Part shown: piece after piece, positions 11,678 to 19,560 of the stretch
Layout of the letters: each line of letters opens with the position of its first letter
Position numbering within the stretch: the stretch's first letter is position 1
Source: Acidobacteriota bacterium
GTDB lineage: Bacteria > Acidobacteriota > Thermoanaerobaculia > Gp7-AA8
Assembly: GCA_003223635.1 (NCBI GenBank)
Contig: QHVS01000005.1
Span: forward strand, 1 to 35,922
DNA length: 35,922 bases
Reading direction: 5' to 3'
Notes under the pieces: generated by a model
What the model was told of the DNA's origin: nothing
What the model saw: the letters and a program-made list of their open reading frames with translations, nothing else
Databases searched by the model: none
Position numbers and translations under genes: made by a program

Positions 11678-11756
11678 GGCGAGCGGCGGGCGGCGAGCGG
11701 CGAGCGGGTATTGGAGGCCACTTCTTCCGCTCGCTGCTCGCTGCGCGCCGCGCGCC
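11678..11756. repeat. Inverted pair of 7-bp tandem micro-arrays (family C, GGCGAGC)
   Basis: GGCGAGC|GGCGGGC|GGCGAGC|GGCGAGC (11678-11705), 23-nt spacer, GCTCGCT|GCTCGCT|GCGCGCC|GCGCGCC (11729-11756). Confidence 0.85.
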
Positions 11757-12550
11757 TAAACATGGTGAATTCCCAACATCGCCACCACGATCGCCACGAA
11801 CGCGCCGACGGAGATCAGCGCGGTGCGCCGCGCGCGATACGCACCGCTGATGTAGGACTGAAGGAGCACCGCGAAAAGAATCCAGGCTGTGATTCCGCCG
11901 AGCTGTTTCACACGCATATCGATCGGGCCCGCGGTGGTGCGGTAGGACCACAGAATTCCCGCCAGGATGCCGAGGGTGTAGATGCTGAAGCCGACGGCCA
12001 GCGTGCGGTAGCTCAGCGTGCGGCAGACGCTCAGGCTGGGGATCCACTCCCACAACGGCCCGCGATGCTTCGACTTCAGCGCGCGGTCCTGGGCGTACGA
12101 CAGGGCGGTGAAGGCCAGCCCGGTCAGCAACGCCGCCACACCGACCGCAGAGAGGAGCACGTGCGCGGTGAAGAGCGACGAGCGCAGCGCCGGATCCATC
12201 TGCGCGAACGGCTCATGCACCACCGCGGCGACAGTCAACAGCATCAGCACGAGCGGATAGACGAAAAATGACGCGGCTTGTACGCGGTAGCGGATGAACA
12301 GCGCCAACTCGACGACGAAGATGCACCAGGCAACGAACGCTGCCGCCTCCGGAAGATTGGTCAGCGGCGGGTGATGGGTGCGCGCGCAAATCGTGCCGAT
12401 CCAGGTGGTGTGGCAGAGGAAGCCGCCGATCATCAGCACCAGCGCCGCATGTTGCGTTCGGCGCTCGCGGGTGAACAGCGAGGCCAGCGCGATCAGCGTG
12501 CCGGCGGTGTAGAACAGCAGCGCCGCGTACAGCGTGAAGTTCGGACTCAT
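11756..12550 (-). CDS. CcsA/HemX-like cytochrome c assembly membrane protein
   Basis: 264 aa, about 8 TM segments, CcsA/HemX-type hydrophobic pattern (HVLLSAVGVAALLTGLAFTALSYAQDRALK...), located directly upstream of hemA as is common for hemX. Confidence 0.85.
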   Translation of the reverse strand: MSPNFTLYAALLFYTAGTLIALASLFTRERRTQHAALVLMIGGFLCHTTWIGTICARTHHPPLTNLPEAAAFVAWCIFVVELALFIRYRVQAASFFVYPLVLMLLTVAAVVHEPFAQMDPALRSSLFTAHVLLSAVGVAALLTGLAFTALSYAQDRALKSKHRGPLWEWIPSLSVCRTLSYRTLAVGFSIYTLGILAGILWSYRTTAGPIDMRVKQLGGITAWILFAVLLQSYISGAYRARRTALISVGAFVAIVVAMLGIHHV

Positions 12551-13035
12551 GGCGACAGCTTCTTGCAGAAGACGACTTTGTCATCTTCCACGCGATAGAA
12601 ATCCTTGATCCGCGAGATCTCGTCGTATCCGCTGCGCTGATAGAACCGCAGGGTGGGGGCGTAGCTTTCCTTCGAGGAGGTTTCGATCAGCAGCATGCGG
12701 CCGCGGCTGCGGCGGACCTCATTCTCTACGAAACGCAGGAGCAACTGGCCAAATCCCTGCCCCTGCTGCTTCGGATCGACGGCGATCCAGTAGAGATCGA
12801 ACACGCCGTCCGTCAGAGGCGTGGCACCGAAGCAGACGTACCCCTTCACCGTCGGCTTGGCTTCATCGCGCTCTTCCAGCACATGGACGATGTACTCGCC
12901 ACGCTCAGGATGGGTCAGGGCCTGATCCACGAGATCCACTGCGCAGCGCACCTCATCGTCGGTGAATCGCGCAGTGGCGATCAGGATGTCACGGATGCGG
13001 TCGCGATCTTTGCTTTGAGCTGGACGGATCTTCAT
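12547..13035 (-). CDS. GNAT family N-acetyltransferase
   Basis: Start reassigned to MKIRPAQSKDRDRIRDIL (13035). GVFDLYWIAVDPKQQGQGFGQLLLRFVENEVRRSRGRMLLIETSS..PTLRFYQRSGYDE: GNAT motif A (Q-x-x-G-x-G/A) and B. ATGA overlap with the CcsA-like gene. Confidence 0.93.
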   Translation of the reverse strand: MKIRPAQSKDRDRIRDILIATARFTDDEVRCAVDLVDQALTHPERGEYIVHVLEERDEAKPTVKGYVCFGATPLTDGVFDLYWIAVDPKQQGQGFGQLLLRFVENEVRRSRGRMLLIETSSKESYAPTLRFYQRSGYDEISRIKDFYRVEDDKVVFCKKLSP

Positions 13036-13996
13036 CGGCGCAGCGCGCGTAGGCAGCCATGATAAGGGTCTCCAGAAATTCCGGAAAAGGGACCCTGGCT
13101 GTCTCCAGCGCCTTCCGGAACCCGCTGCCCGGGCCGATGTCGGGATTGGGATTGATCTCGATGAGGTAGAGGCGGCCGTCGCGCGCCTGGCGCAGGTCGA
13201 ATCGGGCCGCCATATCGATGCCCAGCAGCTCGGCGGCTGCGAGGCAAATGCGCGACAGCTCGCCGCGCGTCGCATCATCCAGGTCGACCGCCATCCCGCT
13301 GACCGTGGCCAGATCCTCGGCCGATCCAATGTCCCACTTCGCCTTCGCCCCCACCACCCGCTCCCAAGGCTTCAAATCAGCAGCGAAGAACATCTCACCG
13401 GGCGGCAGAAGACGCCCGCAGTAGAAGGACTGATTCAACTCGCGGCCGTCGATGAACTCCTCGATGAGCGGCGTCTGATCGTATGTCTCCACCACATGAC
13501 GGCAACGGGCCGCCAGCTCTTCCGGACTGCGAACGACCGCCGCTGCTTCGATGCCGATGCCGCCGTCTTCCAGCGACGGCTTCACGATGTACGTCCCGGG
13601 AGGAACAGAGCGCGGATCAGCGAAGCCTCGCGGCGTCGGGATTCCGGCGGTGCGCAGAAGTTTCTTGACCAGGACCTTGTCGGAGACGAGACCCACCGAG
13701 ACGGGCTCGCAGGAGGTGTGGGGAATCCCGAGCATCTCCAGAGCCAGAGCAAAATTTTTCTCCAGCCCCGGCACGCCCAGGACTCCTTCGCAGAGGTCGA
13801 TGACCACATCGAATCGCTGGAGATCGCGCAGCACTCCGTCGATATCTTCGCGAACGGGCACCAGCGTTCCGCCGGTGGTCTCCGCGACTTCCTCCGCCGC
13901 CTCGCGCACCTCGGCTGAACCGAGAAGCTCCGGGGGGCTGAGGTGCGTCTTCAGGTGGGAATCGTCGTTGAAGGCAACCGCTACGCGGCGCGCCAC
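12989..13996 (-). CDS. ATP-grasp ligase, D-Ala-D-Ala ligase-like (divergent)
   Basis: GTYIVKPSLEDGGIGIE, LIEEFIDGRELNQSFYCG, GRLYLIEINPNPDIGPGSGF. Overlaps the GNAT start by 47 bp. Confidence 0.88.
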   Translation of the reverse strand: MARRVAVAFNDDSHLKTHLSPPELLGSAEVREAAEEVAETTGGTLVPVREDIDGVLRDLQRFDVVIDLCEGVLGVPGLEKNFALALEMLGIPHTSCEPVSVGLVSDKVLVKKLLRTAGIPTPRGFADPRSVPPGTYIVKPSLEDGGIGIEAAAVVRSPEELAARCRHVVETYDQTPLIEEFIDGRELNQSFYCGRLLPPGEMFFAADLKPWERVVGAKAKWDIGSAEDLATVSGMAVDLDDATRGELSRICLAAAELLGIDMAARFDLRQARDGRLYLIEINPNPDIGPGSGFRKALETARVPFPEFLETLIMAAYARCADEDPSSSKQRSRPHP

Positions 13997-14916
13997 CGTT
14001 CCTCCGCACTTCCGAGGATCGCGGCAATCATTCGGTTGTAGGTCCAGCCGGCCGCCTCGATCAGAAGAATGAGGTCGCTGTTCGTCGGATGCATGCCCGG
14101 AAGAGGATTGACCTCCACGAAATTGTGGATGCGATCGCGATCCACGCGGACGTCTACGCGAGCGACGTCGCGGAGCTCGAACGCGTTCCAGATGGCCATG
14201 GCCACAGCAGCAGCATTCGGCTCATCGACCAGCCGATAATCGACCCGCTCCTGCCAGTCGCGCTTCACTTCGATCGAGTAGATGAAGTCCTCGTCCAGCT
14301 TTCGCGGAACTACCTGCATGACGCCGACGACCTTTCCAGCCACGATTCCGACCGTGAACTCCTCGCCGTTCAGAAACTCCTCGATCAACACGGGACCGTA
14401 CTTCGATACCCGCGACACGGCGGAATCCAGCTCCCGCTCGTTGCGGCAGATCGATCGCGCCGTGATGCCCATCGAGGAGCCTTCAGCGGCCGGCTTCACA
14501 AAGAGGGGATATCGCAATCCCCCGACCCGCCACCCCCGACCCGCGACGACCCAGGGCGCGGTGGGGATCCCATGCGCCTTCGCCACGAGTTTGCCCAGCG
14601 CTTTGTCCAGCGTGATGCCGATGGCAAGCGGATCGGGTCCGGTGCACGGGATGCCGAGCATCTCCAGCACCGCCGGCACTTGCGACTCCCTCCCACGCCC
14701 GCCCACGCCCTCGGCCAGATTGAACACGCCGTCGACGCGAGTGATGCGCAGCGCATCGAGCATCGGCCGTCCCCATCCGAGGCGGACGGGCTCGTGGCCG
14801 CACGCGCGGAACGCCTCCTCCAGCGCCTCGATCGTTTCGACAGAGTCGAACTCTTCGAAGTCGTCGCTGCCGGTGGCATGTTCCGGCTTCAGGTTGTAGG
14901 TGAGTCCGATGCGCAT
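13981..14916 (-). CDS. ATP-grasp ligase, D-Ala-D-Ala ligase-like
   Basis: VFNLAEGVGGRGRESQVPAVLEMLGIPCTGPDPLA, RYPLFVKPAAEGSSMGI, VLIEEFLNGEEFTVGIV, FVEVNPLPGMHP. Overlaps the next ATP-grasp gene by 16 bp. Confidence 0.93.
   Translation of the reverse strand: MRIGLTYNLKPEHATGSDDFEEFDSVETIEALEEAFRACGHEPVRLGWGRPMLDALRITRVDGVFNLAEGVGGRGRESQVPAVLEMLGIPCTGPDPLAIGITLDKALGKLVAKAHGIPTAPWVVAGRGWRVGGLRYPLFVKPAAEGSSMGITARSICRNERELDSAVSRVSKYGPVLIEEFLNGEEFTVGIVAGKVVGVMQVVPRKLDEDFIYSIEVKRDWQERVDYRLVDEPNAAAVAMAIWNAFELRDVARVDVRVDRDRIHNFVEVNPLPGMHPTNSDLILLIEAAGWTYNRMIAAILGSAEERWRAA
14519..14546. repeat. 7-bp-period array (family G) inside ATP-grasp gene
   Basis: CCCCCGA|CCCGCCA|CCCCCGA|CCCGCGA; also reads as a 14-bp unit x2. 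Encodes the odd segment AGRGWRVGG between PTAPWVV and LRYPLFVKP. Confidence 0.7.
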
Positions 14917-14925
14917 GTCATTGAC

Positions 14926-15010
14926 GTCATCCTGACCCGGAGCGAAGCGAAGGGAAGGATCTCGACCGGCGTACTGGAGATCCTTCGCCGTCTGCGCGGC
15001 TCAGGATGAC
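14926..15010. repeat. 85-nt nested palindromic element between kamA and the first ATP-grasp gene
   Basis: Outer stem GTCATCCTGA (14926-14935)/TCAGGATGAC (15001-15010); inner stem GAAGGATCTC (14954-14963)/GAGATCCTTC (14977-14986). Both 10 bp and perfect. Supplies the TGA stop of kamA. Confidence 0.85.
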
Positions 15011-16353
15011 GAGGTCTTCGACCTCACCTTGATCCCCCGCGGCGTGTCGCGCACAGGCTGCGGCTCGAAGCGGTCGGCGGTGCGATTGAGGAGCTTGGCC
15101 ACGCCGCGCTCATCGAAATGCTCGCGGTCATTGCACCGATCGCAGTTGTGCGGCTGCCGCTGCACGTCGTCGAAGCGGCCGATTACGCCCTCGAAGTTGC
15201 GATAGACCATCGAGTCGCCGTAGTGGCCCAGGACGTAGTTCGGTGCCAGCGGGACCTTGCCGCCACCGCCCGGCGCATCCATCACGAACTGCGGAACGGC
15301 CAGGCCGGAAGTGTGCCCGCGCAGAAACTCGATGATCTCGATTCCTTCGCCGATGGAGGTCCGGAAATGTTCGGCGCCCATGACCTGGTCGCATAGATAG
15401 AGATAGTAGGGGCGGACGCGGATCTTCATCAGCCCCTGCACGAGATCGCGCATGATGTACGGGCAATCGTTGACGCCCCGCAGCAGCACGGCCTGATTGT
15501 TCACCGGGATGCCGGCCCGCAGCAGACGGTCGCAGGCGGCGGCCGATTCCGGCGTGATCTCGTTCGGATGATTGAAATGGGTATTGATCCAGACCGGGTG
15601 GTACTTCTCCAGCATCGAGCAGAGCTCGTTGTCGATGCGCTGCGGCAGAAACACCGGCACGCGCGAGCCGAAGCGGATGATCTCCACGTGCGGGATGGCC
15701 CGCAGTCCGGCGATGATCTTCTCCAGGTACGTGAGGGACAGCGATAGCGGATCGCCGCCGGAGACGATGACGTCGCGAATCTCCGGATGCTCGGCGACGT
15801 ACTCGATCATCTTCTCGACCTTGCGCTGGCCGGTGGTGCCGTCTTCGTCCACCCATTTCCGCTTGCGCGTGCAATAGCGGCAATACAGCGGGCAATACGA
15901 AGTCACCAGGAAGAGGCATCGATCGGGATAGCGATGGACGATCCCCGTGACCGGCGAGTCGCCTTCCTCGTTGAGCGGATCCCAGGTCAGCTCGCCCGGA
16001 TTGAGCAGCTCCTCGACGGAGGGAACCGACTGCACGCGAAGCGGATCGTTGGGGTCATCGAAGTCGATCAGGCAGAGGTAGTACGGCGTGATGGCTGTGC
16101 GGTACAGCTCGAAGATGTCCGAGAGCCTCGCGTTGGTCACGTCGTCGAATTCGAAGAGGCGGGCCAGATCCTGCAGGGTGGTGACGCGGTTTTTCTGTTG
16201 CCACTTCCAGTCGTTCCACTGCTCGTCCGTAACATCGGGATAGAGCCGACGCCGATTGAAACGTGAGATTTCGACTGGATTTTTTCGGGGAGAGGGGGAC
16301 GCTATGCGTGCTGAGGATCGTGTTGGCACATCAGAGACTGGAACAGAGCTCAT
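15001..16353 (-). CDS. kamA: KamA family radical SAM aminomutase, probable lysine 2,3-aminomutase
   Basis: CPLYCRYCTRKRKW (CxxxCxxC), SGGDPLSLS, HVEIIRFGSRVPVFLPQRI, HPVWINTHFNHPNEITPES, RPYYLYLCDQVMGAEHFRTSIGEGIEIIEFLRGHTSGLAVPQFVMDAPGGGGK. Start reassigned to MSSVPVS. Confidence 0.95.
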   Translation of the reverse strand: MSSVPVSDVPTRSSARIASPSPRKNPVEISRFNRRRLYPDVTDEQWNDWKWQQKNRVTTLQDLARLFEFDDVTNARLSDIFELYRTAITPYYLCLIDFDDPNDPLRVQSVPSVEELLNPGELTWDPLNEEGDSPVTGIVHRYPDRCLFLVTSYCPLYCRYCTRKRKWVDEDGTTGQRKVEKMIEYVAEHPEIRDVIVSGGDPLSLSLTYLEKIIAGLRAIPHVEIIRFGSRVPVFLPQRIDNELCSMLEKYHPVWINTHFNHPNEITPESAAACDRLLRAGIPVNNQAVLLRGVNDCPYIMRDLVQGLMKIRVRPYYLYLCDQVMGAEHFRTSIGEGIEIIEFLRGHTSGLAVPQFVMDAPGGGGKVPLAPNYVLGHYGDSMVYRNFEGVIGRFDDVQRQPHNCDRCNDREHFDERGVAKLLNRTADRFEPQPVRDTPRGIKVRSKTSSS

Positions 16354-16438: not shown

Positions 16439-17704
16439 TCAGCTAACTTTAACGCTTTTCAGCGAATTTGTGATCGAGAAGTTTTCGAAAAGATGAATCG
16501 CCGATTGGGGCACCCATGCGGTGATTCGCACCGCATGGTCCGTGATTTGTTGTTCGTGGACCTCCGAAACGTCATGCAACTTCGCCAACAAACGCGACTC
16601 GTGGTGTGGAAACTCGAGTTGCATGACCTCTCCGCCACGCAGTTCGCGATCGCGAATGGCGACGATGAGACGATCGACTCCGCGGCCGGTAAGAGCGGAG
16701 AGTGTGAGCGCGACGCGGCGGCGGATGTGGACCGCATCGGCGCGATCCGTCTTGTTGTACACCTCGATGATCCGATCGCGGGCCACGCCGAGGTCGCCCA
16801 GGACTTCCTCGCCGATGGCGCGCTGGTCCTCGTACTGCGGATGGCTGACGTCGATGACGTGCAGAACGAGATCGGCGGCCACCGCCTCCTCCATCGTCGA
16901 GCGGAAGGAAGCCACGAGATGGTGCGGCAGCTTTCGGATGAAGCCGACCGTGTCGATGATCACCGTCGGGCGAGGCGCCTCGAACGCAGCGCGCTGCGAT
17001 CGGGCGTCCAGCGTGGCGAATAGTTTGTCCTCGGCCACGGCGCCGCCGCTGGTGAGCCGATTGAACAGCGTTGACTTGCCCGCGTTTGTGTAGCCGACGA
17101 TGGCCACTGTGAAGGTTGCGGCACGCGATTTTCGCTGCGTCTGCCGCGACTGCTCGATCCGCCGAAGATCATCCTTCAGATGGCTGATCCGGTTGCGCAC
17201 GATGCGGCGGTCGATCTCCAACTGCGTCTCGCCGACCCCACGAGTGCCGATGCCGCCCGCCTGTCGGGAAAGGTGCGACCACTGGCGAGTCAGGCGCGGG
17301 AGTATGTACTCGAGCTGCGCCAGCTCGACCTGGGTGCGCGCCTCGCGGCTGCGGGCGCGACCGGCGAAGATATCGAGAATGAGCGCGCTCCGGTCGATCA
17401 CTTTGGCCGGGATGACGCGCTCCAGATTGCGCGCCTGGGCCGGCGAGAGATCGTCATCGAACACCACCAGCGCAGCGTGATGGCGCTCCACGACAGCCTT
17501 CACGTGTTCTGCCTTTCCTTTGCCGATCCAGGTCGCTGCATCGGGAGCGGTCCGCTTGGCGAAGACCTTCTCCACCACCACACCACCGGAAGTCTCGATG
17601 AGCTTCTCCAGTTCGTCCAGGTGCTCTTCTACGACATTACGCGGTACGGTCGGAAGAGCGAGACCGACGGCGATGGCTTTTTCCTGCACGTTTCCTGAGG
17701 ACAT
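16439..17704 (-). CDS. hflX: GTPase HflX
   Basis: GGIGTRGVGETQLEIDRRIVRNRI and GYTNAGKSTLFNRLTSG. Start MSSGNVQEKA at 17704 forms a TGATG overlap with the upstream gene stop. Confidence 0.97.
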   Translation of the reverse strand: MSSGNVQEKAIAVGLALPTVPRNVVEEHLDELEKLIETSGGVVVEKVFAKRTAPDAATWIGKGKAEHVKAVVERHHAALVVFDDDLSPAQARNLERVIPAKVIDRSALILDIFAGRARSREARTQVELAQLEYILPRLTRQWSHLSRQAGGIGTRGVGETQLEIDRRIVRNRISHLKDDLRRIEQSRQTQRKSRAATFTVAIVGYTNAGKSTLFNRLTSGGAVAEDKLFATLDARSQRAAFEAPRPTVIIDTVGFIRKLPHHLVASFRSTMEEAVAADLVLHVIDVSHPQYEDQRAIGEEVLGDLGVARDRIIEVYNKTDRADAVHIRRRVALTLSALTGRGVDRLIVAIRDRELRGGEVMQLEFPHHESRLLAKLHDVSEVHEQQITDHAVRITAWVPQSAIHLFENFSITNSLKSVKVS

Positions 17705-19560
17705 CAATGATACAAGACTCCCGCTCGCGGTGCGTTGTGAAAAAGCAGCCAACGCGAGAATTCGTAGAACGCTTCCGGCAAAGATTCTGTCTCCCCTGCT
17801 CGAACGATCGAGTATCGCGAATCTTGTACCAACCCCAGCATCGGCGGCTGGCGGAACGCGGTGAAGACAAACGCCGCCGATCCTCCAGCGCGCGCGGGAT
17901 CGAACAGGTCGATGCCCAGCGTCTGGTTTTCATACCCTCGCCCGCAGAAGCTGGCCAGCGTCGGCATGATGTCGACGTGACCGGCGGCGACGTCGATCCG
18001 CCGCGGCTGGCGGATGAAACCCGGGGCGTAGATCAGCATCGGGACGTGATACACGATCAGCGACAAATCGCCGAGCGTCAGAACACTTCCCGGCGCCCCG
18101 GTGCGCGTGCCGTGATCTCCGTAGAGCACGAACACGGTGTTGGCGAACCACGGCTCGCGCCGCGCGCGCTCGAAGAAGAGGCCGAGAGCGTGGTCGAGGA
18201 AGCGAAAGGCGTTGTACTCGTCGTTGCCGTCGAAGCCATTCTCATGGAGCAGGTTTTCATCTTCATGCACGACATGAAATCCGTGCGTCTGCTCAGGGAT
18301 CGTGTACGGCCGATGATTCCCCGCGGTCTGGACGATGGCGAAGAACGGCTTCTTCTGCGCGCGGAAGACGTCACCGGCGGCGAGCAGCAGATCTTCGTCG
18401 GAGATCCCCCACACATCGACCACCGGAGCCCGGTAAGAGCCTTCCTCGAAGATGCGCAGGCCATCGATGTTGTGGGCCAGCATGCCGCGGATGTTGCTCC
18501 AGTTGGCGCTGCCGCCGAGGAAGTAGAGTTTGTCGTAGCCGGAGAAGGCGTCGACGATCGTCGCCTGATTCACCGTCAGCGGATTGTGCGCTGAGGCTTG
18601 CCATGGGCTGACATCGGGAATCCCGAATACGACGGCAAAGAGCGCTCGGGCGGTCTTCTCCGACGGCGAGTAATAGTTGGTAAACAGGATGCCGTCGCGG
18701 GCCAGCGCGTCGAAGTTCGGGCAGCCCTTCATGCGGTTGCCGAATGCGCCGCTCTTGAACGCGGCGAACGACTCGAGCTGGATGAGGACGACGTTCGGGC
18801 TTCCATGAGCCTGCGGGAAGAGCGGCGGCGTGCGCTTCAGCGTCAAACTTCGAGGATCGGGATGCTCGAGGCCGAGGTAGCGGACGATGACAGGATAGAG
18901 GCGCCGGACGCGCGCGACATCGAAGCGAGGCGGCTCTTCGCGCGTCGACTCGAACAGATACTGCGCAGGATTCAGGGCCAGATCGCCGACGAATGAGTCG
19001 CGCGAGAAATACGCATCGCTCCACCGCAGCGGGTAGCGCGAGAACTTGCCGTAGATGCACGCCAGAAAGAAGAGCGCCGTGATGAGACGCGCCGATCGTG
19101 ACCCGCGGCTCGCGGTTCGCGGTCCGCGGAAAAGAAACACGATCAGCGCTACGAAGGCAACGATCACCAGGGCGAACAAGACGACGTGATACGACTCCCA
19201 CACCATGTGCAGGGAGATGATCGGGTTGCGCAGAAACTCCAGGACGCCGGCATTGAGCCGCTGCCGGATGTAGGCATACGTAGCGAAATCGGCAGCGTAG
19301 AGGACGGCCAGGAGCGTCTCCGCGATGGCCACGTAGGCGCGACTGCTGAAGAAGAGCAGGGGGACGCTGACGATCGCCGCCAGTCGCGCGTCGAACTTCA
19401 GACCGAGGTAGAAGGCGCGCAGCACATCGGCGGCGGCGATCGGATGGTCGCGGAAGAGGAGAAGGAACACCAGCCGGAGCAGCGTGAACGCCACCAGGTT
19501 GATTGCGAATAACGCGAGCGCGGTCCGCGGAGCGCGGACCGCGGATATCATGCGCCGCAT
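17704..19560 (-). CDS. LTA synthase family / sulfatase-domain membrane protein
   Basis: N-terminal TM segments followed by PNVVLIQLESFAAFKSGAFGNR..PNFDALARDGILFTNYYSPSEKTARALFAVVFG... and VFVLYGDHGTRTG: alkaline-phosphatase-fold/LtaS-like. Confidence 0.9.
   Translation of the reverse strand: MRRMISAVRAPRTALALFAINLVAFTLLRLVFLLLFRDHPIAAADVLRAFYLGLKFDARLAAIVSVPLLFFSSRAYVAIAETLLAVLYAADFATYAYIRQRLNAGVLEFLRNPIISLHMVWESYHVVLFALVIVAFVALIVFLFRGPRTASRGSRSARLITALFFLACIYGKFSRYPLRWSDAYFSRDSFVGDLALNPAQYLFESTREEPPRFDVARVRRLYPVIVRYLGLEHPDPRSLTLKRTPPLFPQAHGSPNVVLIQLESFAAFKSGAFGNRMKGCPNFDALARDGILFTNYYSPSEKTARALFAVVFGIPDVSPWQASAHNPLTVNQATIVDAFSGYDKLYFLGGSANWSNIRGMLAHNIDGLRIFEEGSYRAPVVDVWGISDEDLLLAAGDVFRAQKKPFFAIVQTAGNHRPYTIPEQTHGFHVVHEDENLLHENGFDGNDEYNAFRFLDHALGLFFERARREPWFANTVFVLYGDHGTRTGAPGSVLTLGDLSLIVYHVPMLIYAPGFIRQPRRIDVAAGHVDIMPTLASFCGRGYENQTLGIDLFDPARAGGSAAFVFTAFRQPPMLGLVQDSRYSIVRAGETESLPEAFYEFSRWLLFHNAPRAGVLYH
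19104..19129. repeat. 7-bp array (family E, CGCGGYY) inside LTA-synthase-like gene
   Basis: CGCGGCT|CGCGGTT|CGCGGTC|CGCGG, 3.7 copies; encodes part of RGPRTASRGSRSAR. Confidence 0.8.
19519..19544. repeat. 7-bp array (family E) forming a perfect 11-bp hairpin upstream of waaA and within the 5' end of the divergent gene
   Basis: CGCGGTC|CGCGGAG|CGCGGAC|CGCGG; hairpin CGCGGTCCGCG-GAG-CGCGGACCGCG at 19519-19543. Confidence 0.85.

Follow-up and report, generated by a model that had tools for sequence, protein, structure and literature searches.

A KamA, ATP-grasp and GNAT gene cassette shared by many bacterial phyla and its possible role in making an acetylated beta-lysine (pseudo)peptide

The window analyzed here is a whole stretch of 35,922 nt from a soil Acidobacteriota bacterium (assembly GCA_003223635.1, contig QHVS01000005.1, positions 1-35,922). 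Its minus strand carries a compact cassette of four genes, which encode a lysine 2,3-aminomutase-type enzyme (KamA), two putative ATP-grasp ligases (ATPG1 and ATPG2) with the fold of D-alanine-D-alanine ligase (Ddl), and a GNAT-family acetyltransferase:

15001-16353, minus strand: kamA, radical SAM lysine 2,3-aminomutase type, with its ATG at 16353 and its stop at 15001
13981-14916, minus strand: ATPG1, ATP-grasp ligase 1, Ddl fold but predicted not to be a Ddl, domain Dala_Dala_lig_C
12989-13996, minus strand: ATPG2, ATP-grasp ligase 2, more divergent Ddl fold, domain Dala_Dala_lig_C
12547-13035, minus strand: GNAT N-acetyltransferase of the PDB 2r7h family, domains Acetyltransf_7 and Acetyltransf_1

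The coordinates of the open reading frames agree with the gene order and overlaps given in the initial annotation, which had described an overlapping cassette. The frames of ATPG1 and ATPG2 overlap by 16 bp and those of ATPG2 and GNAT by 47 bp, whereas kamA does not overlap ATPG1 and is separated from it by a gap of 84 bp.

The linkage of the four genes exceeds chance. A search of named genomes of bacteria and archaea that used the GNAT profile only gave more than 500 relatives, of which the best 80 loci were analyzed, and in 50 of these 80 independently anchored loci all four genes lie on the same strand within 3.0-5.3 kb. The order ATPG1-ATPG2-GNAT-KamA is found in 38 of the 50 loci and the order KamA-ATPG1-ATPG2-GNAT in 10, the remainder being variants. 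According to the record titles, the four-gene loci (L140 from Gemmatimonadetes included) belong to about 11 phyla, namely Acidobacteriota, Aminicenantes, Gemmatimonadota, KSB1, Marinimicrobia, Ignavibacteria, Bacteroidota, Lentisphaerota, Planctomycetota, Chloroflexota, and Desulfuromonadales/Deltaproteobacteria; most of the genomes are metagenome-assembled, for which individual phylum assignments may err. The neighborhood survey proposed with the initial annotation thus shows kamA, two ATP-grasp genes and GNAT to be conserved well beyond close relatives. Moreover, the four proteins diverge in a correlated manner when compared in pairs, with mirror-tree r values of 0.69-0.89 compared to a permutation maximum of 0.30, and the shared phylogeny of the organisms contributes to these correlations. 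Plasmid records gave one weak match and no cassette, and viral contigs gave three ATP-grasp matches at 33% identity and no cassette; a mobile or phage origin was rejected on the absence of the cassette from the plasmid and viral records searched.

KamA and ATPG1 were searched for separately across the window's phylum (247 genomes), and the counts were taken by hand from the tables. ATPG1 is found at most 5 kb away from 35 of the 50 lysine-type KamA genes, and KamA adjoins 36 of the 42 ATPG1 genes (in one case as a KamA fragment); the low-scoring KamA relatives, one fragment excepted, do not adjoin ATPG1. As to gain and loss, 9 of the 18 genomes of the window's family have KamA and ATPG1 side by side, and the other 9 have neither. 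In the single-contig genome G156 (L189 7519-8001), the cassette KamA is a fragment, and a longer KamA match is present elsewhere in the genome.

KamA appears to be a lysine-type aminomutase, which would convert L-lysine to L-beta-lysine, as the initial annotation had supposed. The protein contains the Pfam domains LAM_C and Radical_SAM and exceeds the cut-off of the broad KamA family (NCBIfam TIGR00238). It scores 505 bits with the AblA equivalog (TIGR03820), just short of the cut-off of 525, and 242 bits with EpmB (TIGR03821), far under the cut-off of 369. It also matches PDB 2a5h (E=4e-144) and retains the residues C125/C129/C132, R134, D293, D330, and K337 of that structure. Eighty-six KamA sequences, nearly all of which belong to a cassette, were taken from the retrieved loci and counted at covered positions only: the cysteines of the radical SAM CX3CX2C motif are kept in 86/86, the pyridoxal phosphate lysine Lys337 (2a5h numbering) in 83/83, Asp293 in 85/85, Asp330 in 83/83, and Arg134 in 86/86. 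In lysine 2,3-aminomutase, Asp293 and Asp330 bind the epsilon-amine of lysine and Arg134 its carboxylate, and Lys337 holds the pyridoxal phosphate. A genome search showed that the window genome encodes a single KamA.

The two ATP-grasp proteins were compared with Ddl in structure and sequence. AlphaFold models of ATPG1 and ATPG2 have pLDDT values of 94.3 and 94.9, and Foldseek aligns them to Ddl with template modeling (TM) scores of about 0.8 (up to 0.82) and about 0.75, respectively. For both proteins the nearest folds are Ddl only, and the fold therefore gives no hint on the ligase substrate. In an alignment of 105 ATPG1 and 125 ATPG2 sequences to Ddl, the ATP- and Mg2+-binding residues Lys97, Lys144, Glu187, Lys215, Arg255, Asp257, and Asn272 are 100% conserved in both groups, and the position of Ddl Glu270 is occupied by Glu or Asp in ATPG2. 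The substrate-binding residues are different: Tyr216 of Ddl is missing in 105/105 ATPG1 and 125/125 ATPG2, Ser150 and Gly276 are replaced in nearly all ATPG2, and the positions for the second D-alanine, Ser281/Leu282, are mostly altered in both. The scores reach at most 140 bits for ATPG1 and 78 bits for ATPG2, compared to a curated Ddl cut-off of 243 bits, and a separate true Ddl is encoded elsewhere in the window genome (342 bits). No curated NCBIfam equivalog fits ATPG1, ATPG2 or GNAT. Judged from these residues and scores, ATPG1 and ATPG2 are ligases other than ordinary Ddl.

Gene fusions and accessory genes provide further information on the cassette. ATPG1 and ATPG2 form a single polypeptide in the myxobacterium Hyalangium, in which a second long ATP-grasp reading frame adjoins a GNAT (L142 7189-9366 and L113 7801-10128). 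A protein fusing a GNAT domain to a histone deacetylase (HDAC)-type domain is encoded within or beside five cassettes of at least two lineages (Acidobacteriota and KSB1):

L187 6088-7872: GNAT-HDAC fusion
L186 5916-8159: GNAT-HDAC fusion, to which the cassette GNAT itself is joined
L082 11663-13450: GNAT-HDAC fusion
L106 and L085: GNAT-HDAC fusion

In addition, a third ATP-grasp gene, RimK-like and with no Pfam match, is present near the cassette in six loci from KSB1 and Deltaproteobacteria:

L065 3940-4899: RimK-like third ATP-grasp
L087 11621-12559: RimK-like third ATP-grasp
L097, L102, L106, and L082: RimK-like third ATP-grasp

In the pathway that we infer, with its product, co-substrates, acetylated nitrogen, order of steps and role, KamA would first isomerize L-lysine to L-beta-lysine. 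Each ATP-grasp enzyme would then activate a carboxylate as an acyl phosphate and couple it to an amine, so that two new amide bonds could give a short peptide or pseudopeptide with beta-lysine. The GNAT would acetylate one amino group, either to cap the product at the end or to protect that group, and in some lineages the HDAC-type deacetylase with its fused GNAT domain could remove or recycle the acetyl group. HDAC-fold enzymes prefer acetylated long-chain amines, which hints that the acetyl group may be on the epsilon-nitrogen. We consider it probable that KamA, the two ligases and GNAT together make such an N-acetylated short peptide or pseudopeptide containing beta-lysine. The initial annotation had suggested a product of this type, and its reading is supported in part: the evidence backs the conserved module, the lysine-type KamA and the non-Ddl ligases, and the GNAT target, the peptide nature of the product and the osmolyte role are retained as proposals.

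The genomic surroundings can be informative on the role of the product. Most annotated neighbors of the cassettes are housekeeping genes, which vary between lineages and include hem genes and those for V-type ATPase, CTP synthase, PrmA, and RecG; genes for V-type ATPase subunits directly precede the cassette in L052 (3997-11593) and 12 similar loci, mostly from Aminicenantes. No regulator of its own, exporter, or nonribosomal peptide or polyketide synthase was found as a constant neighbor among the annotated cassette surroundings. The cell-wall modifier and secondary metabolite also named in the initial annotation gain nothing from this context. The product is most likely a small internal primary metabolite rather than a secreted natural product because of the housekeeping surroundings and the long co-inheritance.

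A compatible solute or osmolyte is our leading guess, by analogy with N-acetyl-beta-lysine and N-acetylglutaminylglutamine amide (NAGGN). Ngg, an enzyme of NAGGN synthesis, includes an ATP-grasp part. The NAGGN trio asnO-ngg-peptidase (PA3459-PA3461) is a small operon for an acetylated dipeptide (PMC8070244), and the cassette is similar in that it also couples N-acetylation with amide formation. However, the cassette uses other ligase and GNAT families and two separate ligases, and KamA stands in the place of the asparagine synthase-like amidotransferase of NAGGN. The Ngg profile (TIGR03103) has no match in the GNAT (P0004) and is not listed for the window's ATP-grasps, and neither annotated gene flanking the window's cassette is an AsnO-type amidotransferase. 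More tentatively, the cassette, with its two dedicated ligases, could make an ancient, widespread and as yet unnamed acetylated beta-lysine (pseudo)peptide that belongs to the primary physiology of many uncultured phyla and has the function of a compatible solute or cofactor-like small molecule, which we hold to be quite possible.

Some observations weigh against this pathway and role. A search around 14 stretches bearing the cassette gave neither a riboswitch nor a salt-response element. Genome G026, which is 95% complete, carries GNAT-ATPG2-ATPG1 (L153 3232-5700) and no KamA at E<1e-60, and its source of beta-lysine, or its substrate, may differ. Several of the points concern the GNAT. It is present in 16 of the 18 genomes of the window's family, compared to 9 of 18 for KamA and ATPG1, and 7 of the 9 family genomes that lack the latter two retain it. 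In such close relatives GNAT adjoins ccsA, and in L038, L042, and L049 it lies between hflX and ccsA with no other cassette gene; in several other genomes it is unlinked to the cassette. Solo and cassette GNATs are intermixed within one clade of the tree, and a second copy in the window genome adjoins an M28 peptidase gene. A GNAT that persists alone may serve a separate reaction. Since GNAT persists solo and KamA and ATPG1 are gained or lost jointly, KamA and the ligases are the tight core, and GNAT is the loosest member, a frequent partner. It could be argued further that the core is KamA and the two ligases, with GNAT a mere neighbor that catalyzes another reaction. This is unlikely in our judgment, given the adjacency of GNAT in about 11 phyla, its mirror-tree r of 0.84 with KamA, the overlapping frames, and the fusion of a cassette GNAT to the GNAT-HDAC protein.

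The AblA/AblB pathway is the established route to the osmolyte N-epsilon-acetyl-beta-lysine (PMC3543383, PMC9337991), and the top score of KamA is with AblA. Both systems place an acetyltransferase after a lysine 2,3-aminomutase, whereas the cassette adds two ATP-grasp ligases, uses another GNAT family and has no AblB. The GNAT (P0004), which matches the structural-genomics entry PDB 2r7h (E=2e-32), gives no match to the AblB profile TIGR03827 even at E up to 10, and neither does any other protein of the window genome. Of the 247 genomes of the phylum a single one has AblB, and the KamA that lies about 2 kb away from it is outside any cassette. Moreover, such a pathway leaves the joint gain and loss of KamA and ATPG1, with a loose GNAT, unexplained. 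The AblB-type pathway was rejected for the window genome on the lack of AblB, and for the cassette as a whole it appears rather improbable.

Beta-lysine or a beta-lysyl peptide might instead be attached to protein or peptidoglycan, as with EpmAB on elongation factor P (EF-P) or in cell-wall cross-bridges. It is generally known that a KamA-type enzyme supplies beta-lysine for EF-P and that Ddl-fold ligases act in wall synthesis. In the EpmA/EpmB system a KamA-fold enzyme likewise supplies the beta-lysine; however, the cassette KamA is AblA-like and not EpmB-like, as shown by its low EpmB score, and the ligases are ATP-grasp enzymes, unlike the lysyl-tRNA-synthetase-like EpmA. Wall genes are not constant neighbors at the annotated cassettes. 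Attachment to a macromolecule is thus improbable.

Lysine 2,3-aminomutase is also generally known to open clostridial lysine fermentation, and kamA could accordingly serve fermentation or nitrogen supply beside ligases of a neighboring pathway; this is very improbable since KamA and ATPG1 occur either together or not at all in the window's family, and no fermentation gene was found near the annotated cassettes, in a search that did not extend to the rest of the genome. That the ATP-grasps are ordinary Ddl paralogues beside kamA by chance, which the initial annotation had named as grounds for giving up its proposal, is scarcely credible: Ddl (including the VanA/VanG families) is the top named match and fold match of both and shares the ATP and Mg2+ residues, but the replaced substrate residues, scores under every curated cut-off, the separate genomic Ddl and the linkage to KamA across phyla led us to reject it.

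We file the cassette as an ATP-grasp/GNAT pseudopeptide-type system built on beta-lysine. No paper on the combination of KamA, ATP-grasp and GNAT was found in the literature collection searched; earlier notice is possible, most likely in the 2009 amidoligase survey of Iyer and colleagues. If the proposal is true, metabolic maps lack a small metabolite that is made in at least eleven phyla, many of which are uncultured and often met in soils and sediments. The best-matching named families would label the enzymes as D-alanine ligase and lysine aminomutase, which points wrongly to synthesis of the cell wall and to fermentation of lysine. At about 3.8 kb the module is small and can be expressed in one piece, and its product should therefore be directly findable.

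The remaining features around the cassette, given as context and outside the proposed mechanism, are as follows:

11756-12550, minus strand: ccsA-like cytochrome c assembly gene, domain Cytochrom_C_asm
16439-17752, minus strand: hflX GTPase, upstream neighbor (TIGR03156, 429 bits)
14926-15010, no strand assigned: palindromic dispersed repeat of 85 bp between kamA and ATPG1, seen from half-site matches and a hairpin

The gene run extends past the cassette, with a 4-bp overlap between GNAT and the ccsA-like gene, followed by heme genes. The second GNAT-family copy of the window genome (L180 1929-6141, contig C149 of G000) overlaps the M28 peptidase gene, and a saccharopine-dehydrogenase-like gene comes next at that locus. 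A membrane-anchored sulfatase/LtaS-like protein of 618 aa is encoded at 17704-19560 and scores under all curated LtaS cut-offs.

The repeat at 14926-15010 (GTCATCCTGAGC...GAAGGATCT) comprises the 84-bp gap together with the kamA stop codon. Its half-site has 25 matches in the genome, frequently paired head to head, compared to 0 for a reversed control pattern; the region is predicted to form a strong hairpin (z=-3.6). The gap between kamA and ATPG1 is much shorter in close relatives, and the repeat is therefore probably a late insertion.

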